Below are positions 11,344-50,765 of a DNA stretch of 64,000 nt, piece after piece. The DNA lies in the NCBI GenBank assembly GCA_944383265.1, contig CALWOX010000001.1:310001-374000 (forward strand), given 5' to 3'. This DNA is from an uncultured Lachnospiraceae bacterium. GTDB lineage: Bacteria; Bacillota; Clostridia; Lachnospirales; Lachnospiraceae. A model generated the notes under the pieces. The model did no database searches. It had not been told where the DNA came from and saw nothing but the letters and a program-made list of their open reading frames with translations. Made by a program: the position numbers and the translations under genes. Each line of letters starts with the position of its first letter. Position 1 is the first letter of the stretch.

Positions 11344-12708
11344 ATGAAAAATAAGGGACTCTTAATTTTTTCTTTATCGACAGCTCTCGTGGCGGCGGCC
11401 TCTTTTACTTCCCTTGCGGCCTCAGGCTGGCAGCAGGTGAACGAGAACGGAGCGGTCAGATATGTATACTATAATTCTTACGGGGATCTTGAGCGTTCCG
11501 CATGGGTGCGCGGAGATTCCGACAATCAGTGGCGCTGGCTCAATTCCGACGGATATATGGCTGTGAACAGTCTTGTGGATGACGGAAGATACTGCGTGGA
11601 CGAGAACGGCCGCATGGTCGTCAACCAATGGAGACAGGTAAACATTGACGGAGAGCTCAAGTGGATGTACTTCAGCTCCACAGGAAAGGCTGTTACAGAC
11701 GGTTGGAAGCAGATAAGCGGCGCATATTATTTCTTTGACGAGGACGGGATCATGCAGACCGGATGGGTCGATGAGGAGAGATACTATTGTGCCGAGAACG
11801 GAGTCATGAAAAAAGGATGGCAGCTCCTTGATCCTCCGGATGATTATGACGAGGATGACAACGGACCTCAGATAAGCAGCAATGAGGGAAAATATTGGTT
11901 CTATTTTCAGGACAGCGGCAAGGTCGTAAGGGCCGAGGGCTCCGATGATTATATCGAGAAAAAAATCGGCGACAGCAGATACTGCTTTGATGATGACGGG
12001 ATCATGCAGACAGGATGGGTAAAGGTAGAGGACAGAGACCCCGCCATCAGAGGCTACAGATTCTGTGCGGATTCCGAGGATATAAACGGATTTAAGTACG
12101 GAGAGGTCTTAAGATCCACATGGTGGTCGGCGGAAGCTCCCGATGAAGACGGTTTTGACAGTGCTGATGTGAACTGGTACTATCTGGACAGGAGCGGAGA
12201 GCCCCTTGCGGGAGAGGTGACAGAGGACGGAAACGGAGTCGAGCTTTTTACTTCAGGCCTTGAAAAGGTAGAGGGAAAGACCTATTTGTTTAATGAGGTC
12301 GGAAATCCTGTATCAGGCTTAAGAAAGGTAAAGACCTCAAGCGGAAACAAGTCCATGTATTTCGGCGAGAACGAGGCCGAACCCGCACATGAGGGAACCG
12401 CAAGGATCGATGACGGAGTCGGAAATAAGGAGACCTTTGAGTTCAATTCTTCGGGATACGGTTATGACGGAGTACATGACGGAAAGCTCTACTATATGGG
12501 AAGACTTCAGAGAGCTACAGACGGAAGCCGTGCTTTCATAAGAGTAAACGGAGAGACCTATCTTGTAAACACGAGCGGAAGTATACTTAAGAACAAAGAG
12601 TATAAGTCGGACGGTGAGATAGAGTATAAGTCGGACTCAAGCGGAAGACGCAGCGGAGGCTATGGAGAGATAATAGATGCTGAGGAGCCTGAGTACACCA
12701 CGGACTAA
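11344..12708 (+). CDS. Secreted cell-wall-binding repeat protein
   Basis: A 454-residue protein with a clear signal peptide (basic MKNKG, hydrophobic core, cleavage around residues 25-28 after SLAA). The whole mature part is built of choline-binding-like repeats with GW, YYFFDEDG, MQTGW and YYLDRSG motifs, interrupted by acidic stretches. There is no separate enzymatic domain, so it may be a structural surface protein or adhesin. It has its own promoter and stands just before the ribosomal operon. The last 25 residues are tyrosine, serine and glutamate-rich without the repeat pattern. Confidence 0.87.
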   Translation: MKNKGLLIFSLSTALVAAASFTSLAASGWQQVNENGAVRYVYYNSYGDLERSAWVRGDSDNQWRWLNSDGYMAVNSLVDDGRYCVDENGRMVVNQWRQVNIDGELKWMYFSSTGKAVTDGWKQISGAYYFFDEDGIMQTGWVDEERYYCAENGVMKKGWQLLDPPDDYDEDDNGPQISSNEGKYWFYFQDSGKVVRAEGSDDYIEKKIGDSRYCFDDDGIMQTGWVKVEDRDPAIRGYRFCADSEDINGFKYGEVLRSTWWSAEAPDEDGFDSADVNWYYLDRSGEPLAGEVTEDGNGVELFTSGLEKVEGKTYLFNEVGNPVSGLRKVKTSSGNKSMYFGENEAEPAHEGTARIDDGVGNKETFEFNSSGYGYDGVHDGKLYYMGRLQRATDGSRAFIRVNGETYLVNTSGSILKNKEYKSDGEIEYKSDSSGRRSGGYGEIIDAEEPEYTTD

Positions 12709-29102: not shown

Positions 29103-30404
29103 ATGAAAAAGATTATAAGTTTGATAACAGTGGCAAGTTTAGTGTCTTCAATGCTGTGCAGTACCGCCTTTGCAAGAGTATACTATGATGATAAGTATAA
29201 GGCTATTCCCAGTGTGAGGATAAAAGTGGAGACCGGAGAGCTTGACTTGGGGGATGAGCTCAGTGACAGCGCTGATTCCTATGTTTCTGTTCCGGAGAAC
29301 GAGTACTATACTCTTGACGATGCTGAGTGGATAGATTCCGTATATCAGTTGAAGGTAGGAGATGCACCTCGAATGAGAGTATGGCTTTCCAATGCAGGGA
29401 GAGAAGTCAGCAACAGCAACTATTCGACATACTATGAATTCAGGGGAAGCTACACATCGTCAAATGTTCGTATTACAAATGGAGAGTTTATTTCAGCCTC
29501 CAAGAGAGACTCCGGAGATACGCTGGAGGTAGTACTCAGGATAGACCCTGTAAAGGGAACTTATGATTCGCCTGTTTCGGCGGATTGGGGATCTCAGAGA
29601 GGCATGGCCACATGGGAGGAGCCTTCAAATGGCTCAGGATATTATGATGTTGTCTGCTACAGGGGTTCAACGGTAGTTAAGAGACTTAACAGCTATCACG
29701 GAACAAGCTATAATTTCTACCCTTACATGACAAAAGAAGGAGATTACAGCTTCAGAGTGAGAACAGTTTCATCTTCAGGCAGCTCGGTGGGAAAAGATTC
29801 TGACTGGATGGAGTCGGGTTTGCTTACTATAGAGGCAAATCAGGTGTCTGACGGCTCGGGACAGACGACAGCCGATGAGAATGGAGGAAATCAAACTCTT
29901 GACGGAAATTCATATCCTAACGGTACCGGTAATGCAAATGTAGCAGGCTGGATACAGCAGGGCAGCAATTATTATTTCAGATATCCGAATGGAACCTATG
30001 TGACTGACGGCTGGTTAAATCTGAACGGAACTTACTATATGTTTGATTCCACAGGACGTATGCTTACGGGCTGGCATCAGAATAAGTACGGAATATGGTA
30101 CTATATGGATAATAACGGGAAGATGCATACAGGCTGGCTTAAGGACGGAAACTATTGGTATTTCCTCAATACCACAAAGGATGTCTACGAGGGCTGCATG
30201 GTGCGCGGTTGGTGGACCTGGGACGGACGCAAGTATTACTTTAATGACTCGGGAATAATGGTTACAGGTTGGTATCAAGTAGACGGTAACTGGTATTATT
30301 TCTATCCTGAGGGAAGTACAAACGGAGGCCCCTACGGATATATGGCTACAAATACCGATATAGGCGTATTTCATGTTGATGCCGATGGGGTATGGAGAGG
30401 ATAG
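29103..30404 (+). CDS. Secreted cell-wall-binding repeat protein
   Basis: 433 residues with a signal peptide (MKKIISLITVA, cleavage near STAFA, residue 24). Two beta-rich parts follow, the second (about 160-245) resembling a fibronectin type III-like fold (ATWEEPSNGSGYYDV, YSFRVRTVSSSGSS). After a Gly/Asn linker come choline-binding-like repeats (about 280-420) with GWIQQGSNYYF, GWLNLNGTYYM and GWHQNKYGIWYY. It has its own promoter and terminator and sits between rplQ and the ECF genes. It is probably a surface protein with a ligand-binding head; the ligand is unknown. Confidence 0.88.
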   Translation: MKKIISLITVASLVSSMLCSTAFARVYYDDKYKAIPSVRIKVETGELDLGDELSDSADSYVSVPENEYYTLDDAEWIDSVYQLKVGDAPRMRVWLSNAGREVSNSNYSTYYEFRGSYTSSNVRITNGEFISASKRDSGDTLEVVLRIDPVKGTYDSPVSADWGSQRGMATWEEPSNGSGYYDVVCYRGSTVVKRLNSYHGTSYNFYPYMTKEGDYSFRVRTVSSSGSSVGKDSDWMESGLLTIEANQVSDGSGQTTADENGGNQTLDGNSYPNGTGNANVAGWIQQGSNYYFRYPNGTYVTDGWLNLNGTYYMFDSTGRMLTGWHQNKYGIWYYMDNNGKMHTGWLKDGNYWYFLNTTKDVYEGCMVRGWWTWDGRKYYFNDSGIMVTGWYQVDGNWYYFYPEGSTNGGPYGYMATNTDIGVFHVDADGVWRG

Positions 30405-39041: not shown

Positions 39042-40175
39042 TTACTTCTGTGCTATCATTTCATAAAGAGTTTTAAAATTATCAGGGATAATAGTAAACA
39101 GATAATTTTCGATACGGTTATCAGCATTTTCCAGATAGAAGGTTATGTTACCTTCTTCCATTAATGCAGCTAATACTTCATCACGATAGACATCATCAAC
39201 AAAAATCCTATCATTTTGACTGTAAAATATACCGGATAAGTTATGGTCGGTTCCATCAGAAGTTCTCATCGTTATGTTGAAGGTTTTGTCAAAGCCGACA
39301 TTTTTATCAGGGTTTATGTCTTGATAGGAATGGAGTGTTATAGTTATATAGTCAGGATCAACTACCAGTCTTGCTCCAAGAGCTCCGTTTGTTGCAACAC
39401 TGTTATTAAATGTACCTGCGAAAAGTTTTTGAGTAGTAATGAACCAGTCTTCGGTAGGCTGATTAAAATTATCTACATAGTAATTAACTGACCAGAGATT
39501 CATGGCCTCTGTATCTGCAATCTGCTCTGAAGACTCTACAGAACCGGAAGACTCTTCAGGGCCTAAGGGCTCAGCAACATTTTCTGAGTCGGCAGTGCTC
39601 TCTGTATTTCCTAATGCTTCCGGAATGGAAAAGTTCAACTCAAATGATTCACTGCCTGAATCGGTTTCCAATCTTCCTTCAAAAAGTCCTTCAACTCTAT
39701 ACAAATCATCTATTGATTCTAACGCTGTATGTTCAGGCTTCGTATCTTTTGCAACGAAGAAATCATGATTACCTGACATTCCCGATGCCACAGTAACAGG
39801 ATTATTAACTATATATGCTTTTTCTCCATCCAAGTAAGCATCCTCAGGCCAAACGCTTATTTCATCATCACTCTTATTGGTTACTTTAATTGTAATTTTT
39901 TTTTCATTTTGCTTTCCGTCAGCCCAGTTTACATCCTCTGCAAAGAAATTGACCAACTCGATCTTTGCAACATCATTTTCCGCTAAAACAACATTTTCAA
40001 AAGTCCTTAGATTCTCATCCTGTGATTCAGACTCTTCGCTTTCTTCAGTAGCATCCTTTGTCAGAGATTCAGCATTTGCCTGAGCCTCTGTTACATTAGC
40101 CTCTGTACCCCCCCCGCATGCGGAGAGCGCCATTGCGGCGGCCACAGCGGTTAGTGCCAAAAGTTTTTTCTTCAT
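39042..40175 (-). CDS. Lipoprotein 1 of a three-gene paralogous set (poly-G 8, in frame)
   Basis: 377 residues. Lipoprotein signal with lipobox LSAC, cysteine 20. An acidic Glu/Ser linker follows (to about 60), then a beta-rich domain (about 60-190, DUF-like) and a C-terminal domain (about 225-377; NLWSVNYYVDNF, FNITMRTSDGTDHNL). The C-terminal domain is shared with lipoprotein 3. The codons after Cys20 are a run of eight G at 40108-40115, encoding Gly-Gly-Gly. Eight G keeps the frame open. Function unknown; the protein should be anchored on the outer face of the membrane. Confidence 0.87.
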   Translation of the reverse strand: MKKKLLALTAVAAAMALSACGGGTEANVTEAQANAESLTKDATEESEESESQDENLRTFENVVLAENDVAKIELVNFFAEDVNWADGKQNEKKITIKVTNKSDDEISVWPEDAYLDGEKAYIVNNPVTVASGMSGNHDFFVAKDTKPEHTALESIDDLYRVEGLFEGRLETDSGSESFELNFSIPEALGNTESTADSENVAEPLGPEESSGSVESSEQIADTEAMNLWSVNYYVDNFNQPTEDWFITTQKLFAGTFNNSVATNGALGARLVVDPDYITITLHSYQDINPDKNVGFDKTFNITMRTSDGTDHNLSGIFYSQNDRIFVDDVYRDEVLAALMEEGNITFYLENADNRIENYLFTIIPDNFKTLYEMIAQK

Positions 40176-40280
40176 ATCTTTATCCTCCTTTAATCGCGCA
40201 AAAGCACGAAATTATAACGGGTTTTCATATATTATATTAAAAAGAAGGAGGCAATCCAATATGCGGGCTGCATAGTGTTT
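40099..40280 (-). repeat. Direct repeat A1: promoter, leader and signal sequence of lipoprotein 1
   Basis: About 182 bases nearly identical to 41333-41517. It covers the promoter, the leader, the ribosome site, the signal peptide and the poly-G run. The minus-strand promoter is TTGGAT, 17 bases, TATAAT. Confidence 0.85.
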
Positions 40281-40285
40281 ATATA

Positions 40286-40311
40286 AGGACGGCACTTAGA
40301 TGTACCGTCCT
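40286..40311 (-). terminator. Terminator of lipoprotein 2
   Basis: AGGACGG (40286-40292) pairs with CCGTCCT (40305-40311), with T-rich sequence on the minus strand. Confidence 0.65.
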
Positions 40312-40323
40312 GTAATGAATAGT

Positions 40324-41410
40324 TTATTCTGTTAATCCGACAAGTCCCGAAAAATCAAGATTGCCGTCCTCGTAGGTGTAATCCATTGTAGCTTGTTCGC
40401 CGTTTTCGTAAGTTACCAAAAGAAGATCCTTGCAGACGGTGTAGGTACCTTTGTTGGTAAGCTGATAACCGCCTACAACACTTTCAACAGTAATGTTGAA
40501 TCCGTCAAAAGTCAAGGTATAAGATACAGCACCTTGGCTGTACTGCCACTGCCCTTGAAGCTTTTGACTTATCTCATTTGCAAGGGCTTCGTCAACAGGT
40601 GCATATTTTTCATCCTTTTCCGCTTGCATAGCAGCCTCTTGCGCATCAAAATCTGACGCGTTTTCATCTGTCTGTTTTTTTAAGACATTATAGTAAAGCT
40701 TATTGTCTATAAATAAAAGCTGATACTCTGCATCGTTCCATTTAAGTGTAACGACACCGTTATCAAATGTATACTCACCATCATACGAGTCACCATCGGA
40801 GGTTACGAGAAAGCCACCTTGCATCTGTCCTGTTTCCTGCTGAATAGTGAATGTTCCGTCTTCCTTGAAGGTGAGAGTATTTGACAGTTCATATCCATTG
40901 CTCTGAGATACGAAAGGTGTTTGGAAGCTCTGCGTTGATCTGCCGTTTTCATCAAAGGAAGGCACAGCGCCATATTCCGAGTCTTCATCAAAATAATCAT
41001 CATTTGAGAAGTAGTAATATTCCTCATAAGGAGTCATGATGTATTGATTACCTAAGTCAACAGGCTGTAAAGTTATTTTGCCGTCTTCACTGACGGTATA
41101 AGTTCCTTTTTGTCCGTAATCCACCTTGTCACTGTCATAGGTTCCGTTATCATTTAAGACATAAGTTGTGTTTTCAAGAAAACTTACATTTTTATAGGTT
41201 CCCGTGACATCCTGTACTTCAGGTGCCTCAGTCTCCTTGGACTCGTTTTCGGATTCGGCATCTTCGGAAACCTCGCTTGAATCAGACTCTTCGGACTGAC
41301 TTTCATTGCCTGTCTGAGCTTCCGTTACATCAGCCTCTGTACCCCCCCCCGCATGCGGAGAGCGCCATTGCGGCGGCTACAGCGGTTACCGCCAAAAGTT
41401 TTTTCTTCAT
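40324..41410 (-). pseudogene. Lipoprotein 2, frame OFF by a 9-G run
   Basis: From ATG 41410 the signal sequence reads into a run of nine G (41342-41350) after the lipobox cysteine. With nine G the frame ends three residues later (GGGYRG then stop). With eight G it would continue in frame through an acidic linker to the stop at 40324, about 361 residues. The body (open from about 41124) has lipocalin-like beta repeats such as GTYTVSEDGKITL and GTYTVCKDLLLVTYENG, a fold unlike copies 1 and 3. Only the 5' end is shared with them. It is either a phase-OFF state or a base-call error. Confidence 0.8.
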
Positions 41411-41517
41411 ATCTTTATCCTCCTTTAATCGTGCAAAAAAGCACGAAATTATAACGGGTTTTCATATATTATATTAAAAAGAAGGAGGCAATCCAATATG
41501 CGGGCTGCATAGTGTTT
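41333..41517 (-). repeat. Direct repeat A2: promoter, leader and signal sequence of lipoprotein 2
   Basis: 185 bases, nearly identical to 40099-40280; the three extra bases are one G in the poly-G run and two A in the leader hairpin. Confidence 0.85.
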
Positions 41518-41533
41518 TTCTTTATATAAAAAA

Positions 41534-41562
41534 GAGAGGAGATATAAAGGTATCTTCCTCTC
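41534..41562 (-). terminator. Terminator of lipoprotein 3
   Basis: On the minus strand GAGAGGAAGATA pairs with TATCTCCTCTC, followed by TTTTTT (plus 41528-41533). Confidence 0.75.
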
Positions 41563-41572
41563 CTGATTCGGT

Positions 41573-41757
41573 TTATTGTAATGCCTCTTCATAAACAGTA
41601 CTGAAGTTGTCGGGTATAATTGTAAACAGGTAATTTTCGAGCGGATCATCAGTATTTTCAATATAGAATGATATATTGCCATCGCCTTTAAGGGCAGTTA
41701 ATACTTCATCAAAATATACATCGTCTATATATAGCCTGTCATCATTTGAATAGAAAA
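41573..41757 (-). pseudogene. Lipoprotein 3, 3' fragment (left of the mobile element)
   Basis: The minus-strand frame ends at stop codon 41573-41575 and aligns with the C-terminus of lipoprotein 1 (FYS-x-DDR, IDDVY, ENYLFTIIPDNF). It is the tail of the gene whose first part is at 49762-50765. Across the core the frame is continuous, so the intact gene encoded about 397 residues. Confidence 0.85.
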
Positions 41758-41794
41758 AGCAATATCCTTATAAAGTCGGAAAAAAAAGGTATAT

Positions 41795-42919
41795 ATGACA
41801 CCTTCAGCAGCCCAGGAACATGGTTATATCCGAGCAGACAAACATCCGAAAAGCACCCGTTTCGGCAGACAGAATCCTGTTTCAGAACAGTGGAACAGCG
41901 AAGCACAGCTTCGAGAATGGCGGAAAGCATGGGCAGATGCAGTCAACCATACTTTACAGGAACATCAGATCGACACCCGGATAGATCACCGTAGTTTTGC
42001 TGATCAGGGACGTGATGAACAGCCTACCATCCATGAGGGATACCATGCAAGAGATATGGAGAAGAAAGGATTGATTTCCGACCGCTGTGAGATCAACCGC
42101 CAGATTCGGAAAGACAATCGACTCTTCCGGGAATTAAAACGGCAGGTAGAGAAACTAACAAAGACAGTCAGCGAAAATATCCATTCCGTCGCAAAACGAT
42201 TGGAGCAGCTCCGGGGCACTATGATCATGATCCGTTACTATCTGTTCCATAACCGTATGCAGGCATCCTCCACCAGAGAATGGATTTCTATGATTACACC
42301 GGTTTTGAAGAAATACAAAGCTATCACAAAGACAATCCGGACAAAGCAGACAGAAAAGAAGTCTCTTCAGGCACAGAAAAAGAAACTCAGCTTTTTGCAG
42401 CCGGTACAGTACTATCAGATCAGCCAGAAGATCACAACTCTTACTGAGGATATTGAAGAATTGCTGTCGCAGAAAGAACGGCTTATCTGTGATAATTACT
42501 TTCACAATGAATCCGAAATAAAGACGAGTGAAATCGCTCTTAAAAATCAGAAAGACTTTTTAAAGAAACTGGATGCCCAGTATGACAACTTATCTGATCA
42601 GCTGACAGAAAATCAAAAAAAGTATCAGGAAATCAAAGCAGATGTCAGTCCCGAAAAATCTGCGGACCTGTTCGATGCAAGAGTTGACGAAAGAGATATG
42701 ATCAGGGATCAGGTTTATCAGAAATTATATGCCACGATGGGACAGAAATTCGATGCTTCCCTGTTTCATGAGTCTGTCAGTGACATAGACGATCGGCTCG
42801 GTGAAGATCCAGAAGCTTTTCATGACCGTACTTATCAAAAACGAATTGCACGGGAAATGGAACGCAGGAAAGAGCAGCCTGTCCGACTGAAGAAAAAAGT
42901 GCATAATCATGAACGGTAA
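41795..42919 (+). pseudogene. MobA/MobL-type relaxase, 5'-truncated
   Basis: 374 residues that match only the part downstream of the relaxase catalytic domain: REWRKAWADAVN, IDHRSFADQG, PTIHEG and MEKKGL, then long coiled coils (about 105-330). The N-terminal domain with the catalytic tyrosine and the HxH metal site is absent. The left end of the element lies only 30 bases upstream, so that part was cut off. The ATG at 41795 has a weak ribosome site. It probably cannot nick DNA. Confidence 0.75.
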
Positions 42920-43034
42920 CAGGTGGAACTAAATACCGCCTGTTACTCTATTACATGATTAATTTATAATAATAGACTTTTATCGAGGTCTCACACCTGT
43001 CTAGCGGTCCTGTCAAGAATAAATCTTCTGTATT

Positions 43035-44495
43035 TTACTCCTCTTCAAAGATTTCTTTCCCATTTGTTTCAATAACTTTTTTGTACCAGTAAAAGCTGTC
43101 CTTTTTGAAGCGGTTCAGTGTGCCACCCTCCTCTTCTTCCCGGTCCACATAAACGAAACCATATCGCTTCTGATATCCATTCAGCCAGCTCAAAAGGTCA
43201 GTGAAGGACCAGGTACAGTAGGCCAGTACCTGGCAGCCCTCCTCCACAGCTTCTCCCAGCGCCTTGATATGCTCTTTCAGGTAGCAGATCCTGTACTCGT
43301 CATGTATCTGATCGTCCTCAGTCTTCTTGTCAAATGCTCCCAGTCCGTTCTCAGAGATGACTATGGGCAGCGCATAGCGGCTCGTAATCTCTCTGCAGCA
43401 GAACTGAAGTCCCGAAGGATCGATACTCCAGTCCCAGTCTGTGGTCATCAGATACGGATTGGCCGGATTTTTGTAAATCCCTGGCATCCCCAGCTCCTGG
43501 GCAGAGCCCTTAACACCGGTCGTGTTCATAGTCCCGTAGGGAGTGACTCCATCCATGGGATTGTACTCGCACACACAGCTCTGGTAATAGTTTACGCCCA
43601 TAAACGTGATTTGTGATGCCGCCTGTCTGAGAATCTCCTTGTCTCCATCAGCTATGTCCGGCGCAATCCCCTTTTTCTTCAGATATGTCATCGCCGCAAC
43701 AGGATAACGCCCGTATGCATATACATCCATCCACCAGTAGTTTTTCAGGTCATCGTAGTTGGCTTTTGCCATAGCGTTGATAGGCTTGCAGTCCAGGGCA
43801 TAGGAGGGGGTGTAGGCAAAGCTCGCCCCTATCTGTCCCTTTCCTCCCATCTGCCGGTAGGCCAACACCGCCTTTGCATGAGCCATAAACGCATGATGAT
43901 TGACCTGGTAGAACATTTTCTGGTCATCAAATTTACCCGGCGGATGCTGGGCTGTCAGCCATCCCAGCGAAGTAAATATATTCTGCTCGTTCAGAGTGAT
44001 CCAGTACTTCACCTTGCCGTCAAACCTAGAAAACAGCGTTTTTGCATAATGTACATAATCATCGATGATGCGGGGGCTCTCCCACCCCTGATACTCATCG
44101 ACGAGGGCCTGGGGCAGATCCCAGTGGTAAATAGTCACCATGGGCTCTATGTTGTATTTCAGGCACTCGTCAATGATATCCTGGTAAAAAGCTATTCCCT
44201 CCTCGTTGACCTCCCCGGTCCCCTCAGGGAAGATCCTGGCCCAGGAGACAGAGAAGCGGTATGTATTCAGTCCCATCTCCGCCATCAGTGCGATATCTTC
44301 TTTGTACCTGTGATAGTGATCCACTGCCACATCCCCTGTAGTAGCTTTGTAAGTCTTGCCCGGGATGCGCACAAACGCATCCCAGTTCGTCATCCCTTTT
44401 CCTCCTTCCTTCCATCCGCCTTCAATCTGATAGGCGGCAGAAGCACTTCCCCAGAGAAATCCCTCCGGAAATCCTGCTGCTCTCATCTGTTCCAT
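43035..44495 (-). CDS. bglA: 6-phospho-beta-glucosidase, GH1
   Basis: 486 residues, a usual GH1 length. The N-terminal FLWGSASAAYQIEG motif, the acid/base glutamate in TLNEQN (near 168) and the nucleophile glutamate in VISENGLGAF (near 380) are present. It hydrolyses phosphorylated beta-glucosides (cellobiose, salicin or arbutin type) delivered by the PTS encoded just upstream (24 bases). The third gene of the licT-bglP-bglA operon. Confidence 0.94.
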   Translation of the reverse strand: MEQMRAAGFPEGFLWGSASAAYQIEGGWKEGGKGMTNWDAFVRIPGKTYKATTGDVAVDHYHRYKEDIALMAEMGLNTYRFSVSWARIFPEGTGEVNEEGIAFYQDIIDECLKYNIEPMVTIYHWDLPQALVDEYQGWESPRIIDDYVHYAKTLFSRFDGKVKYWITLNEQNIFTSLGWLTAQHPPGKFDDQKMFYQVNHHAFMAHAKAVLAYRQMGGKGQIGASFAYTPSYALDCKPINAMAKANYDDLKNYWWMDVYAYGRYPVAAMTYLKKKGIAPDIADGDKEILRQAASQITFMGVNYYQSCVCEYNPMDGVTPYGTMNTTGVKGSAQELGMPGIYKNPANPYLMTTDWDWSIDPSGLQFCCREITSRYALPIVISENGLGAFDKKTEDDQIHDEYRICYLKEHIKALGEAVEEGCQVLAYCTWSFTDLLSWLNGYQKRYGFVYVDREEEEGGTLNRFKKDSFYWYKKVIETNGKEIFEEE

Positions 44496-44519
44496 GTCTC
44501 TTCCTCCTTTTATTTTCGA

Positions 44520-46415
44520 TTAACGTACTATCAGTATCTCATCCAGTTCCTTCACCAGTCCGGAGGAGGTGGCAGAGACATCCGCAAATGCATCCGTGTT
44601 GGATACGATAACCGGAGTCGTGATGTCATATCCCGCCTTCAGGATCTCATCCTTGTCAAACTCCAGGATAACTTCTCCCTTCTTGACTGTATCTCCGGAA
44701 GCCTTTTTCGGATAGAAATATTTTCCTTCCAGATTTACCGTGTCCATACCTACATGTATCAGCAATTCCACACCATCATTGCTGGTCATTCCGACTGCAT
44801 GACCGGTCTCAAACATCATATCTATTTTTCCGTCAAAGGGGGCTACCACTTCTCCCTTCTCCGGGATGACAGCGGCGCCTTTTCCCAGGATTCCCTGTGA
44901 AAATGTAGCGTCCTTCACCTGCTCCAGCGGGATGCACTCTCCCTGGATAGGGCTCGAAATACGGATTTCTCTTCCCTCCGGAAGGGGAGCGGCTGCAGGC
45001 TTGGCTTCTTCTGCCAGAATATCCTCATCATCCTCGTCCACAATGTCTTCAAAGCCGATCAGCATAGTGGCGATAAATGCCACAATGATTGTTATGACAA
45101 TGGTAAGGGCTGCTATCAGAAGGCTGGCCGCTCTGTCCTCCTCCACATACTGAACAATCGTCACGATTGCCGGTGTTGCGATACCAAAGCATTTCATCTG
45201 GAAAAATCCACCGAAGAGTCCACCTGCGACAGCTCCGATGCAGGCTCCCAGCATTGGCCTTTTCAGTCTCAGTGTCACACCGTAGAGAGCGGGCTCTGTA
45301 ATACCTGCCACAAGTGCGGAGAATGCGGAAGAGCCTGCCACCTGTTTAAAATCTTTATTTTTGCTCTTTAAGGATACAGCAAGAGAAGCAGCACCTTGTG
45401 CCATGTTGGCGCAGAGCTCACCGATACAGATAAAATTCTCATACCCGGTTGTGGCAATCATACCAAGCTTTATCGGGGTAAATGCATGGTGCATACCAGC
45501 CATGACAACAAACGGATAAATACCGGCCACCAGTCCGATGGCGATAAAACCGAGCTGGTCATGGATAAAGTATACGATATCTGACAGGACATTGCCGAGG
45601 ATTGCCCCCAAAGGTCCCAGCACGATCAGGGCAATCGGTGCCTCGATCAGCACCACCAGCATGGGACGCAGGAAGTTCTTAGTCACCACGGGTGTAATCT
45701 TATCTGCCAGCTTCTCCACATACTTTAGGGACCATACTGCCAGGATGATCGGGATAACCGAGTAGGAATAGGAAGCATAGGTAACCGGAATAAAGCCGAG
45801 GAATTTTACCACCTCCCCTGCCTCATTTGCATTGCTCATCAGAGAAATAAAATTAGGATGGAGCATGATAAGCGCAATGCTGGCCGCATAGTACATATTT
45901 GTCCCGAATTTCTTTGATGCAGAGATGGCAATCAAAACAGGCATAAAGAAAAAGGCTCCGTCTCCCATAACACTTAACAGGTTATAGGTATTCCCTTCTG
46001 TATCAAGCACGCCTATCATGGGCAGCAGCGTCAAAAGCACCTTGATCATAGCTGCTCCGATGAGCGCTGGAATAACTGGCGCCATAATGCCGGAAATCGT
46101 GTCCATCAGCATGGAGATGATTCCTTTCTTTTCCTGCTTCTGGGGTGTGCTCTTCGGCGTCTCGTTTGAGAAGTTACCGAGCTTATTCAGCTCTGCAAAG
46201 ACATTGGCCACGTCATTGCCTATGATGATCTGGTACTGTCCAGCCTTCTTCATTACTCCCATAACGCCTTTTGTCTTTTTCACTGCCTCGTCGTCCACAA
46301 TGGACTCGTCTTTCAGCGTGAATCTCAGTCTGGTCATACAGTGTACAAGGCTGATTACATTTTCTTTTCCTCCTACACGCTGCAGGATTTTCTTTGCAAC
46401 ACTTGCGTAATCCAT
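44520..46415 (-). CDS. bglP: Beta-glucoside PTS permease EIIBCA
   Basis: 631 residues. The EIIB domain has phosphocysteine 26 (SLVHCMTRLRF), the EIIC membrane domain lies about 105-460, and the EIIA domain has the phosphohistidine in LLIHVGMDTVNLEG (near 552). It imports and phosphorylates beta-glucosides with phosphate from HPr. In BglF/BglP systems the permease also controls the LicT antiterminator by phosphorylation. A terminator and a RAT site lie between it and licT. Confidence 0.95.
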   Translation of the reverse strand: MDYASVAKKILQRVGGKENVISLVHCMTRLRFTLKDESIVDDEAVKKTKGVMGVMKKAGQYQIIIGNDVANVFAELNKLGNFSNETPKSTPQKQEKKGIISMLMDTISGIMAPVIPALIGAAMIKVLLTLLPMIGVLDTEGNTYNLLSVMGDGAFFFMPVLIAISASKKFGTNMYYAASIALIMLHPNFISLMSNANEAGEVVKFLGFIPVTYASYSYSVIPIILAVWSLKYVEKLADKITPVVTKNFLRPMLVVLIEAPIALIVLGPLGAILGNVLSDIVYFIHDQLGFIAIGLVAGIYPFVVMAGMHHAFTPIKLGMIATTGYENFICIGELCANMAQGAASLAVSLKSKNKDFKQVAGSSAFSALVAGITEPALYGVTLRLKRPMLGACIGAVAGGLFGGFFQMKCFGIATPAIVTIVQYVEEDRAASLLIAALTIVITIIVAFIATMLIGFEDIVDEDDEDILAEEAKPAAAPLPEGREIRISSPIQGECIPLEQVKDATFSQGILGKGAAVIPEKGEVVAPFDGKIDMMFETGHAVGMTSNDGVELLIHVGMDTVNLEGKYFYPKKASGDTVKKGEVILEFDKDEILKAGYDITTPVIVSNTDAFADVSATSSGLVKELDEILIVR

Positions 46416-46460
46416 ATCTTCACCTCATTAAAATAAAATTATGCATCCCGGAAGTCTCCG

Positions 46461-46551
46461 GAAAAAGAAAGACCTGGCCTCAAAGAGCGCATTTTCCCGG
46501 GAAATGTGCCCTTCAGGACCAGGTCTTGCTTAACTGAATAATAACAAACCT
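46461..46551 (-). promoter_or_regulatory. RAT antiterminator site and terminator before bglP
   Basis: In the minus-strand RNA the RAT-like AGGTTTGTTATTATTCAGTT... (46551-46521) overlaps a strong terminator whose stem AAGACCTGG/CCAGGTCTT (46528-46468) is followed by T-rich sequence. LicT binding to the RAT would prevent the terminator. Confidence 0.8.
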
Positions 46552-46556
46552 GTGAA

Positions 46557-47396
46557 CTAGCGATGCTGTTCGTCCAGTATTCTCTTTATATGAATCAGCA
46601 GATATAGCTCTTCATCTATGCTAAGCCGGTATCCGTACTGCTTTTCAATGAACTGGGCCACCTTTTCCACACCCGTATAGGCATGCCCGTTTTGTGCCAC
46701 CATTGCATGGTATATCTCCTCCATGCTGTCCTGGTAAACCTCACCATCCAGCACTCTGGCCGAGAAGAATTTTAAATGTGTCAAAAATCTCTGATAGGAC
46801 ACAGAATCCTCATCAAATTCAATCCTGAAATGCATTTTTACAATCTTGATAATGGCATTGATCAGCTCTGTCATCTTTTGCACATCTGAAACCTCATTGC
46901 TCTCAAACTCTGAGGATATAATATGCATGGCAATAAATCCCGCCTCGTCTTCTCCCAGATCAATATCTGTCATCTTCCGAATCCACTCAATGGCCTCCTG
47001 GGCCACCCTGTATTCCTGGGGATAAAATTTCCGAATCTCGTGTCGCATCAAATTCTTGAGGCTGATTCCGCTCTGGTATCTCTCCACAGCGGAATTGATG
47101 TGATCTGTCAACGTGACATAGAGGGTATCTCTCACCTTCAGTCCTTCTTCTCTGGAAGCAGTGACCACCTTGCCGGCAATCTCCAGATATTTTTCCGAGA
47201 TTTCCCTCACCACCTGCTGCAACCTGTAATTATCTTCCGCACTCTTCAGGCAATAAATTTTCTCCACGCAGGACTTGTCCAGCTCTTCGCCTTTTTTCTT
47301 TTTAAAACCAATCCCGGCACCGGTAATGATGATTTCCCGGCCGTACGAATCCAACGATACAACTGCATTTGTATTCAGAACCCTGACGATCTTCAC
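46557..47396 (-). CDS. licT: BglG/LicT transcriptional antiterminator
   Basis: 279 residues. An RNA-binding CAT domain (about 1-55; LNTNAVVSLD, GAGIGFKKKKG), then two PTS regulation domains with their phospho-histidines (HINSA, EAGFIAMHI, HLKFF). It binds RAT hairpins in nascent RNA, and is switched by PTS phosphorylation. Two RAT-terminator pairs stand in front of licT and of bglP, so it controls itself and the operon. Confidence 0.94.
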   Translation of the reverse strand: MKIVRVLNTNAVVSLDSYGREIIITGAGIGFKKKKGEELDKSCVEKIYCLKSAEDNYRLQQVVREISEKYLEIAGKVVTASREEGLKVRDTLYVTLTDHINSAVERYQSGISLKNLMRHEIRKFYPQEYRVAQEAIEWIRKMTDIDLGEDEAGFIAMHIISSEFESNEVSDVQKMTELINAIIKIVKMHFRIEFDEDSVSYQRFLTHLKFFSARVLDGEVYQDSMEEIYHAMVAQNGHAYTGVEKVAQFIEKQYGYRLSIDEELYLLIHIKRILDEQHR

Positions 47397-47442
47397 CTAT
47401 TCCTGCTCCCTCTAGCAAACATCCGAAGCAATTCTAATATAA

Positions 47443-47517
47443 AAAAACTGTCCATAATACTATTATCCCAATCAGTATTATAAACAGTCTTGCTTACCAT
47501 TACGTAATAACAAACTT
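47443..47517 (-). promoter_or_regulatory. RAT antiterminator site and terminator before licT
   Basis: Minus-strand RNA: RAT-like AAGTTTGTTATTACGTAATG (47517 downward) followed by GGTAAGCAAGACTG. It overlaps the terminator GACTGTTTATAATACTG/TAGTATTATGGACAGT with TTTTTTT (47443-47490). Confidence 0.8.
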
Positions 47518-47528
47518 AATTTATATAT

Positions 47529-47557
47529 ATTTTAACAGTTCTCAGTGCATTTGTCCA
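47529..47557 (-). promoter_or_regulatory. Promoter of the licT-bglP-bglA operon
   Basis: Minus-strand TGGACA (47557-47552), 17 bases, TAAAAT (47534-47529); the RNA would start just before the RAT site. Confidence 0.6.
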
Positions 47558-47902
47558 TAGCTATATTCATTTTCGTCATATATTACAATTTTCTTTTTTT
47601 ATTTTTGTACAATATTTCAAAATTATTTTCTCAGCTCCAGCCAACCTGTAGAACTATACAAAACATTTTATCTAAAATATGATGATCGGAGCCGACATTG
47701 CAAAGCTTCTATCATTTTCCAATACAAGTACATTCTCATCTCTTTTCTGTAAAATGTATGGATGTTCACCACGTCAGTACAAAAATTTTTCCAAGAACAC
47801 GGATGAAATTTGTTGAGGAAAGAGCTTTTTGACTGATATTAATTTCAAGATTTGAAAGTTATTCATACTTTACTTTTATACGCATATATGTCTCTATTAC
47901 CA
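47558..47902. other. AT-rich region between divergent licT and recombinase genes
   Basis: About 340 bases without a coding frame, between two divergent promoters. I saw no clear cre box or long repeat. It may hold the element's transfer origin, but I cannot recognise one. Confidence 0.4.
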
Positions 47903-47931
47903 TTTACCCGTTTTATACTATATGATATAAT
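47903..47931 (+). promoter_or_regulatory. Promoter of the serine recombinase
   Basis: TTTACC (47903-47908), 17 bases, TATAAT (47926-47931). ATATGA and TCATAT form an imperfect dyad over the -10 and the start, a possible operator. Confidence 0.65.
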
Positions 47932-47968
47932 AGCTTAAGTCATATATCGTATAATAAGGAGAAACATA

Positions 47969-49771
47969 ATGAAAGAAAATGAGAATTATATTGCCATCTA
48001 TTCCCGAAAGTCAAAATTCACCGGCAAAGGTGAAAGCATCGGCAATCAGGTTGAACTCTGCAAAGAATATATCCAGGCACATTATACTGAAATTCCACAG
48101 GATCATATTTTAGTGTATGAGGATGAAGGCTTTTCCGGCGGTAATCTCAACCGACCGGACTTTAAAAAAATGATGGAAGCTGCAAGGCAGCGTAAGTTCA
48201 AAGCGATCATTGTCTACCGCCTGGACCGAATCAGCCGGAATATCAGTGACTTTTCCAGCCTTATTGAAGAATTGTCAAGACTGGACATTGCTTTCATATC
48301 TATCCGAGAACAGTTTGATACCGGAACTCCCATGGGACGGGCCATGATGTATATAGCTTCTGTTTTTTCCCGGCTGGAGCGTGAAACCATAGCCGAGCGT
48401 ATCAGATATAATATGCATGAACTGGCGAAAACCGGACGATGGCTTGGGGGAACAACTCCCACAGGATATGCCTCAGAATCGGTACAGAAAGTTACCATAG
48501 ACGGGAAAGCAAAAAAGGCCTGCAAGCTGAAACTGATACCGGAAGAATCAGAAATTGTCCGTCTGATCTACAGCCTGTATATCGAACACGATTCTCTGAC
48601 TTCTGTAGAAGCAGAATTAATAAAGCGGGGACTTAAAACAAAAAACAATAAACTCTTTACCCGTTTTTCAATCAAGTCTATCTTACAGAATCCGGTTTAC
48701 ATGATCGCGGATGTAAACGCATATAACTTTTTTGTAAAAGAGAACGCAGATCTTAATTCTGCCAAAGATGAATTCGACAGCGTCCATGGCATGATGGTAT
48801 ATAACCGCACCAAACAGGAAAAAGGGAAAGCCGTCACCTATCTTCCGCCCGATGAATGGATTGTTGCGGTAGGTCTGCATCAGGGCATTGTTCCGGGCAA
48901 AGTCTGGATTTCTGTACAGGAGTCTCTGGATCGGAATAAAAGTAAGGCATACCGAAAGCCTCGGAATAACGAAGCACTCCTGACCGGTCTTTTATACTGC
49001 ACCTGCGGCAGCCGTATGTATCCGAAGATCAGCAAGCGAAAAACTGCTGACGGGAAGCCGATATACACTTATGTATGCAAATTAAAAGAGCGCAGCAAAC
49101 GTTCCATGTGCAACAGTAAAAATGCCAATGGGAACACACTGGATCTGGCTGTGATCGAGCAGATCAAGCTGCTGGAAGATGACAAAGGTTTCTTCATTGA
49201 CCAGCTGGAACAAAGCCGGAAATTCTATACCGGCAACCGTGCAGCCTATGAAGATCAGCTGGCTTCTATCCGTCATGAGAAAGAAGAACTGGAAAAGAAA
49301 ATTGAAGGTCTGGTTGATTCCCTAGCCGATTTGGGTGACAGCACGGTTAGGAATCAGGTGGCACGACGCATTGAACAGCTGAATCAGAAATGTGAGGAAA
49401 CAGACACCCGGATCCATGAACTGGAAGCACTGACTTCCCAGCACACTTTCAGCGATATCGAATTTGACGTCATGCGGCAACTGCTGTCCGTTTTCAAGAC
49501 AAGCATAGATGAAATGACCGTAGAACAGAAACGTGTGGCGATCCGCAAACTCGTCCGCAAAGTTGTATGGGACGGTGTCAACGCCCATATTATCCTCTTC
49601 GGGGTGCAGGATGATGAAATTGAATATCCGCCGCTTTCCTATCAAACAGATGAAGCAGACAGCACAGAAGACGACTTAGAAGAGTTGGAACGGTTCAGTG
49701 ATGTGGATTATGAAGATGAAACCGCTGACGGCTCAAAAACTCATTGGGGTGAGGATAGCAAATTCCCGTAA
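47969..49771 (+). CDS. Large serine recombinase (element integrase)
   Basis: 600 residues. The resolvase domain has the likely catalytic Ser12 (YSRKSKFTG), the YRLDRISRN motif and RETIAERI. After this comes the recombinase domain, a zinc-ribbon (CTCG near 343, then YVCKLKERSKRSMC) and a coiled coil of about 430-490. This is the layout of the large serine integrases of the TnpX/TndX type. The last codons (SKFP then stop) lie beyond the AGCAA core and so come from host DNA; in the circular form the end would differ. Start ATG 47969 follows AAGGAG. Confidence 0.92.
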   Translation: MKENENYIAIYSRKSKFTGKGESIGNQVELCKEYIQAHYTEIPQDHILVYEDEGFSGGNLNRPDFKKMMEAARQRKFKAIIVYRLDRISRNISDFSSLIEELSRLDIAFISIREQFDTGTPMGRAMMYIASVFSRLERETIAERIRYNMHELAKTGRWLGGTTPTGYASESVQKVTIDGKAKKACKLKLIPEESEIVRLIYSLYIEHDSLTSVEAELIKRGLKTKNNKLFTRFSIKSILQNPVYMIADVNAYNFFVKENADLNSAKDEFDSVHGMMVYNRTKQEKGKAVTYLPPDEWIVAVGLHQGIVPGKVWISVQESLDRNKSKAYRKPRNNEALLTGLLYCTCGSRMYPKISKRKTADGKPIYTYVCKLKERSKRSMCNSKNANGNTLDLAVIEQIKLLEDDKGFFIDQLEQSRKFYTGNRAAYEDQLASIRHEKEELEKKIEGLVDSLADLGDSTVRNQVARRIEQLNQKCEETDTRIHELEALTSQHTFSDIEFDVMRQLLSVFKTSIDEMTVEQKRVAIRKLVRKVVWDGVNAHIILFGVQDDEIEYPPLSYQTDEADSTEDDLEELERFSDVDYEDETADGSKTHWGEDSKFP

Positions 49772-50765
49772 GATTATGGTCTGTGCCGTCATCTGTTCTC
49801 ATTGTGATATTGAAGGTTTTGTCAAAGCCTATATTTTTATCAGGATTCCTGTCTTGATATGAATGAAGGAATATTGTTATTACATTGTCCGAGTCAACCA
49901 CAAGCTTAACCGCAAGATTGGCATTAGTCGCAATACTGTTATTGAAGGTTCCTTGGAAAAACTTTTGTGTGCTGACATACCACTGATCGGCAGGCCGGTT
50001 AAAATCGTCGACATAGAAATCCTTGGACCAAAGATTCATAAGCTTTGTATTTGCCGCCTGATCCGATGAAGATCCTTCTCTGGTGCCGTTGCTATTCTCA
50101 TCAGTCAAGGTAGCGGTTTTCATATCGCTTGTAAATGTATAGAGATTTTCAGTAGAGCCATCCCCAAGCGATGCGGACATATCATTATTAAATCCTATGC
50201 TGAAGCTTGCGCTTTGAAACTCGTCGATGAGTTTTTCAGGGACATTGGCATAAATAGCGTAGTCAAAATCTGTATAGGGGTCAAGCTCACGAGAGTTGCT
50301 TCTGCAAAAGTCAAATCGTGGATCGTCGATTTCAAAGGAATCATTTACCGTTATGGAGCATGAAAAAGCGTTCGAAGGTATAACATATGTTGCCTTGTTT
50401 TCAATGTGTCCCTCAAGTACAAGCAGCTTGTAGCCTTCTTCTATAGTGGGTGCAAAAGCGGAGCCGGATGAATCTACAGTATAGGAATATTCCGAGTATG
50501 CATCCAAGGCTCCAAAAGTCATGTGGAACGCATCTGTATCAATGACATCGTCGCATATCGCCTCCGGCTCTTCAGTCGATTCTTCAACGCCTTCCTCATC
50601 AGAAGATGCACTGCTTTCATCCTCAGATGACTCTTGAGTTTCGCTGCTTTTCTGAGCCTCTGCGGCTGAATCAGCCTCTGTTACAGTACTGTCTGTACCC
50701 CCCCCGCATGCGGAGAGCGCCATTGCGGCGGCCACAGCGGTTAGTGCCAAAAGTTTTTTCTTCAT
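49762..50765 (-). pseudogene. Lipoprotein 3, 5' part (interrupted by the element)
   Basis: From ATG 50765, with the same signal peptide, lipobox and poly-G run (eight G, 50698-50705, in frame) as lipoprotein 1. An acidic linker, a beta-rich domain unlike copy 1 (about 85-210) and the start of the shared C-terminal domain (NLWSKDFYVDDF, FNITMRTDDGTDHNL) follow. The frame runs across the junction into the element for 22 residues. The missing end lies at 41573-41757. Confidence 0.85.

Follow-up and report, generated by a model that had tools for sequence, protein, structure and literature searches.

Poly-G runs behind the lipobox cysteine of three related lipoprotein genes are candidate phase-variation tracts in an uncultured Lachnospiraceae bacterium

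The window analyzed here is a stretch of 64,000 nucleotides from an uncultured Lachnospiraceae bacterium (assembly GCA_944383265.1, contig CALWOX010000001.1, positions 310,001 to 374,000). It contains three lipoprotein genes, copies 1 to 3, in which an uninterrupted run of eight or nine guanines directly follows the codon of the lipidated cysteine. This raises the question whether slippage in such a run could switch each surface lipoprotein on and off independently, as was proposed in an original prediction made from the sequence of the window. Taking the evidence together, we regard the three runs as probable contingency tracts for phase variation by poly-G, situated in the leader of a small lipoprotein family arranged in tandem.

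Poly-G runs behind the lipobox cysteine

The three runs read as C-runs on the plus strand, with the minus strand as the coding strand. Copy 1 has 8 G (40108..40115), copy 2 has 9 G (41342..41350) and copy 3 has 8 G (50698..50705); lengths and positions are thus as originally predicted, and no other G or C run in the 64-kb window is longer than six. The genes share the leader MKKKLLA(L/V)TAVAAAMALSAC, whose TGC codon abuts the G run without a gap in all three copies, and each run starts after codon 20 of its open reading frame (ORF). A lipoprotein signal consisting of M-KKK, a hydrophobic core and L-S-A-C was recognized in copies 1 to 3 by reading and with a simple pattern, and the three products are predicted to be lipoproteins with a signal peptide, a lipobox and its cysteine.

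With 8 G, copy 1 reads CGGGTE... in an ORF of 377 amino acids (39042..40175, minus strand), and copy 3 reads CGGGTD... in an ORF of 356 amino acids (49695..50765, minus strand). The 9 G of copy 2 give CGGGYRG followed by a stop codon, six residues past the cysteine. These translations agree with the predicted frames, including a break in copy 2 "three residues later" (Y, R, G, then stop). In copy 3 the reading frame holds at the run, but the last part of the gene has been cut off by an inserted element, which supplies the final approximately 19 residues of the present ORF, unlike copy 1. The signal peptide and cysteine of copy 2 (MKKKLLAVTAVAAAMALSAC) are encoded at 41351..41410 and its body at 40324..41340, both on the minus strand; the body frame past the run is open for 338 amino acids plus a stop codon. 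In each copy the two frames that do not lead into the body terminate 3-8 codons past the run. At this location a length change of a single unit would be expected to switch expression. The state of copy 2, which is cut off as read, fits a random on/off switch without proving one.

Searches with the protein bodies were less informative. Copy 1 is without a Pfam match up to E 0.01, and the body of copy 2 matches the lipocalin-like DUF4923 above the cut-off and DUF5640 under the cut-off. An NCBIfam search with copies 1 to 3 returned sub-cut-off matches only, and no solved structure related to copies 1 and 3 was found by sequence. The Pfam matches and domain searches therefore give no function for the three bodies.

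The original prediction stressed that the runs occupy the same position in three genes. This is true, although the three do not count as independent observations. Over the stretch from ATG to TGC, copy 3 agrees with copy 1 at 60 of 60 bases and copy 2 agrees with copy 1 at 57 of 60, and leader DNA matches occur at three places only in the 2.30-Mb genome. The DNA match of copy 2 to the others is confined to the leader and the upstream flank; copies 1 and 3 also have a C-terminal domain in common (59% over 156 residues). Judged from these alignments, a single duplicated leader is behind all three runs, and because the leaders are duplicates the equal position reflects one copied event and not three.

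In the mechanism that we propose, slipped-strand mispairing during replication would add or remove a single G. Each gene would thereby flip between a whole lipoprotein and a lipidated stub of about seven residues, counted from the anchor cysteine. Each copy may switch on its own, having its own run and, in copies 1 and 2, also its own promoter-like site. These two sites (40211..40240 and 41448..41477, minus strand) are identical, with TTAATA and TATAAT separated by 18 nucleotides, and are assigned by consensus match only. Since copies 1 and 2 each carry this sequence, independent switching is plausible, and since every copy has a run and two have such a site, the states of the copies can differ, as they do in the sequence as read. 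Slippage, reversibility and the independence of the copies are what we infer from this arrangement.

Long G runs in the genome, the genus and the family

G runs were counted genome-wide by pattern windows (101 six-G, 29 seven-G and 17 eight-G windows). By length, the genome has 60 six-G, 2 seven-G, 4 eight-G and 5 nine-G runs and a single ten-G run, and this bimodal spectrum (60-2-4-5-1 for lengths 6-10) is the real signal. A geometric decay from the 60 six-G runs with the observed or the upper-limit rate predicts 0.07-0.98 runs of at least eight G; the most generous decay predicts 3.75 (p = 0.005 for the ten observed, p = 0.04 if the leaders are counted once). Markov nulls were trained on the window with the three tracts cut out. 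For orders 1-4 they expect 33, 9.6, 7.1 and 6.2 runs of at least eight G (observed: 10), and these orders over-predict runs of at least six G (206-582 expected vs. 72 observed). The order-5 null expects 100 runs of at least six G, which is nearest to the observed number, and 0.56 runs of at least eight. When the tracts were kept in the training set, orders 1-5 expected 9 to 33 runs of at least eight. Only against the order-5 null, the one that suits the numbers of shorter runs, are the tracts longer than composition predicts. The tests for an excess of runs were picked post hoc, with the data already seen.

Beyond the three lipoprotein copies, the genome contains seven further runs of 8-10 G. 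The closest parallel is C5:25514, where 10 G lie one codon past the cysteine in the leader (MKKKFAVAMAAVLALSVAGCS) of an unrelated lipoprotein. This gene is out of frame as read, with a body of 363 amino acids open past the run; a more distant upstream GTG shares the body frame but yields no signal peptide. C1:427872 has 9 G inside an Acyl_transf_3 gene, in a region with genes for a polysaccharide pyruvyl transferase and an aminotransferase. Ahead of the run, the product aligns with profile positions 7-257 (of 326); for positions 279-325 there is a weak match (E 0.023), located in another frame than the read-on one. The 8 G at C1:426101 are in frame, in an unassigned gene 1.8 kb from C1:427872 that adjoins polysaccharide pyruvyl transferase, and the 9 G at C4:192737 are in frame in a MacB/FtsX permease gene. 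C4:155625 has 9 G between TTGACA and TAGTAT in a spacer of 21 nucleotides, and the 9 G at C1:190327 are intergenic. A surface link fails for some runs, for instance C5:95363, whose 8 G occupy the place expected for the ribosome-binding site in front of a peptidase M20 gene. The protein families point to a putative cell-surface role for copies 1 to 3, the lipoprotein at C5:25514 and the acyltransferase at C1:427872. Because of the seven further runs, we consider it probable that the lineage possesses a small set of poly-G switches at multiple loci, many of which would act at the cell surface.

By SecY, the organism belongs with uncultured Lachnospiraceae. Among the best 80 records, a metagenome assembly with 92% identity is closest, and Candidatus Avilachnospira is at 73%; judging by its named relatives, the organism is presumably a gut commensal. 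A run of at least eight G is present in 22 of the 25 genus genomes, that of the window included. The genus set comprises 117 distinct runs of at least eight G from 119 loci, with L148 and L320 left out as too near the locus end; 63 runs have 8 G, 41 have 9 G, 10 have 10 G and three are longer. Among the fetched genus loci, six runs are located at the cysteine of a lipoprotein, namely the three window copies, C5:25514 and two in relatives, and no other was found. In L155 (genome G017), 8 G lie at or one codon past the cysteine of an SBP_bac_5 binding lipoprotein, in frame; in L164 (G018), 9 G lie at or one codon past that of a Peripla_BP_4 binding lipoprotein, out of frame. Three of the six are thus in frame and three out. 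On and off states both occur, but among paralogues and unrelated lipoproteins. Runs in acyl- and glycosyltransferase genes of relatives were also found (L133, L134, L135 and L159). We rejected the notion that every long G run of the genus is a switch, as some are in prophage-like or housekeeping contexts or fit no reading (labels assigned by eye).

The genus set was also used to compare long with shorter runs. At G runs on the sense strand, frame splits were found in 9 of 113 runs of at least eight G vs. 1 of 83 runs of length 5-6 (p = 0.03). The classifier under-counts such splits, because C1:427872 and C5:25514 were scored as in frame. A -10-like hexamer directly follows 10 of 117 runs of at least eight G and 7 of 598 runs of 4-6 G (p = 7e-5), and on the mirror side the numbers are 1 of 117 vs. 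5 of 598. A combined -35/-10 score singled out 21 of 117 long runs vs. 52 of 662 runs of 4-6 G (p = 0.001). This is suggestive of poly-G runs in promoter spacers, the strict test being significant and the other versions mixed.

Poly-G directly before a -10-like hexamer was seen at L179, L157, L148, L156, L176 and L145, and also at C4:155625 (L014) of the window genome. Some of these loci carry a TTGACA-like hexamer 15-21 nucleotides upstream and are possible promoter-spacer switches. Long G runs are followed by T in 69 of 117 cases and runs of 4-6 G in 143 of 598, and this T excess exceeds what the ten strict -10 cases explain.

The runs had originally been called unusual for Clostridia. For poly-G itself this goes too far, since runs of nine or more G are present in 152 of 250 family genomes, and in 46 of the other 249 the number of nine-G windows equals or exceeds the 7 of the window genome (hand count). 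For the placement in lipoproteins it may hold. A pattern of a cysteine codon plus G7 has 73 matches in 51 of 397 family genomes (hand count), and the reversed pattern has 28 matches in 23 genomes; the outlier G318 accounts for 16 matches and 6 reversed ones. Thirty loci with this pattern were inspected, one being the window's own, and none of the 29 from other genomes (of 70 matches) is a lipoprotein. L066 and L076 had passed a loose filter for lipoproteins and were rejected by eye, as they do not have signal peptides. Nine-G windows are very abundant (54 to 149 per genome) in G084, G131, G169, G171 and G219. In G219 this is at least partly an artefact, because the run at L061 consists of 49 G ending in N's.

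Alternative explanations and the surrounding tandem array

Several observations weigh against reading the runs as switches. Markov orders 1-4 give no clear excess of runs of at least eight G. In the genus set, the -35/-10 score is not significant against runs of 5-6 G (21/117 vs. 12/113, p = 0.08), poly-G before TANNNT is weak (16 vs. 7 for the reversed pattern, p = 0.09; in the window genome the relation is turned round, 1 vs. 2), and runs with C on the coding strand have no excess of frame splits (1/112 vs. 1/86). With copy 3 and the C5:25514 body as queries, the 24 genus-mates gave no match to the C-terminal domain of copies 1 and 3 or to the C5:25514 body. The copy 3 query had some match in 13 of the 25 genus genomes, which outside the window genome covered only the leader or N-terminal part (the longest with 26% over residues 1-204, in G022). 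In the contigs of named genomes, 43 stretches fit a peptide pattern for copy 1 relatives and none was confirmed. Some of the genus runs are located in genes or gaps without an evident link to the surface. Many of the compared genomes are assembled in fragments, and most of the relatives that SecY names are metagenome assemblies, in which homopolymer length may be a consensus value or an artefact, as the 49 G of L061 illustrate.

Homopolymer length is a frequent assembly error, and a miscount during assembly or sequencing might explain the 9 G of copy 2, and perhaps the 10 G of C5:25514, in genes that are constitutively in frame. In the case described in the accessible part of PMC9187656, the G-tract length of the reference did differ from the main length in the population. 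We nevertheless consider a miscount unlikely. Within the window, 18 of 35 homopolymers (A/T of at least 7, G/C of at least 6) are inside long ORFs and in frame, among them a T9 within copy 1 and the runs of copies 1 and 3. In no case did one of the 35 separate two long ORFs, although this test is blind to copy 2 with its short upstream part. An error would, in addition, produce neither the bimodal length spectrum nor the placement after the cysteine.

Glycine-rich spacers after the lipobox are common, and the leader might by chance have spelled its linker GGG GGG GGT before it was duplicated in tandem, copy 2 then being a pseudogene with one indel. The near identity of the three leaders and the wide distribution of poly-G in the family would agree with such a history, which we judge improbable on the remaining evidence. 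Across 23 ORFs of the window, GGG makes up 85 of the 755 glycine codons, and by this codon usage the chance that Gly-Gly-Gly is spelled in this way is approximately 0.0017, a value that counts once and not thrice because the leaders are duplicates. The run has stayed pure in all three copies although both flanks are already diverging, and the body of copy 2 is without another stop across 338 codons. Moreover, the unrelated leader at C5:25514 has a nearly equal arrangement in the same genome. Long homopolymers can also induce slippage in transcription or translation, in which case an out-of-frame run would still give some full-length protein. Slippage of bacterial RNA polymerase is best known on A/T runs, however, and an origin of this kind, in place of replication, seems very improbable to us.

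Replication slippage at phase-variation tracts is the likeliest cause of the run lengths, given the length spectrum and the independent lipoprotein cases in the genome and the genus; this part of the original prediction stands, and reversible switching of expression would follow from it. A wider reading is tentative and, in our view, somewhat doubtful. According to it, this uncultured Lachnospiraceae genus would have a Campylobacter-like multi-locus set that acts on frames and promoters and gives each cell a random combination of surface structures, with lipoproteins in the off state leaving a lipidated stub. The frame targets would be lipoproteins, switched just behind the lipidated residue, and acyl- and glycosyltransferases; the promoter targets would be poly-G runs before a -10 box. 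If this is true, strains that look identical may be mixtures of cells with different surface lipoproteins and glycans.

The three genes evidently derive from a tandem array in which a recombinase element has split the third member. A detached C-terminal piece of copy 3 is located at 41573..41749 (minus strand), approximately 160 bases upstream of the copy 2 start; it reads SNDDRLYIDDVYFDEVLTALK...LFTIIPDNF... and by eye resembles the end of copy 1. Since the pieces of copy 3 flank approximately 8 kb, the copies were once neighbors before the element entered copy 3. The element extends from 41760 to 49757, with its ends approximated by eye, and carries the 3' part of MobA/MobL (a 5'-truncated gene), a GH1 glycosidase, PTS EIIBCA and a serine recombinase; no near match among plasmids was found for it. 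The large serine recombinase (47969..49771, plus strand) has Resolvase, Recombinase and zinc ribbon domains, and its final codons enter copy 3. Elsewhere in the window, two proteins with choline-binding repeats are encoded (11344-12708 and 29103-30404), on the same stretch as the genes for ribosomal protein L2 and SecY.

Relation to known phase-variable systems

Among the titles and opening abstract lines of the open-licence PMC papers that our searches brought up, we found no report of phase variation by slippage in poly-G or other repeats in Lachnospiraceae. The closest likeness is to the poly-G/C genes of Campylobacter. According to the accessible sections of PMC8355987, these have tracts of about 8-11 G within ORFs and in a minority of cases between genes, they encode surface structures, and there are many loci per genome. 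Campylobacter belongs to another phylum, switching has been seen there and is here deduced from sequence, and here the tract follows a lipobox cysteine, an arrangement to which those sections do not refer; the word "lipoprotein" is absent from that paper. The same sections describe a bias toward insertions at G8 and toward deletions at G11 and longer, which holds the tracts near G9-G10. The runs of the genus set, mostly 8 to 10 G, are near the range of these switching tracts.

Other known systems resemble the locus in part. In Bifidobacterium breve, likewise a gut commensal, a tract of 9-12 G in the first gene of the pilus operons decides whether the whole surface protein is made, as described in the accessible part of PMC9187656. 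Unlike the genes studied here, these operons encode sortase-dependent pili, and their length mixtures were proven by deep sequencing. A survey of homopolymeric tracts at 5' ends (PMC2831843, in its accessible sections) reports tracts near the gene start where a frameshift results in a very short product, as in copy 2; over-represented there are poly-A and poly-T, in contrast to the poly-G found here. Within Clostridia, the phase variation covered in the accessible part of the review PMC11868660 is by inversion, in Clostridioides difficile. Its invertible promoters are an example of phase variation in the same class, although they switch by site-specific inversion and not by the repeat slippage proposed here.

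The tracts thus probably belong to the poly-G contingency kind that is already known, mainly from pathogens, with a Lachnospiraceae lineage as a new host. According to the same part of the review, the seeming restriction of genomes with many phase-variable loci to pathogens is a major question still to be answered, for which a bias of the databases may be one reason. If our reading is true, a Lachnospiraceae lineage with such loci bears directly on this question.

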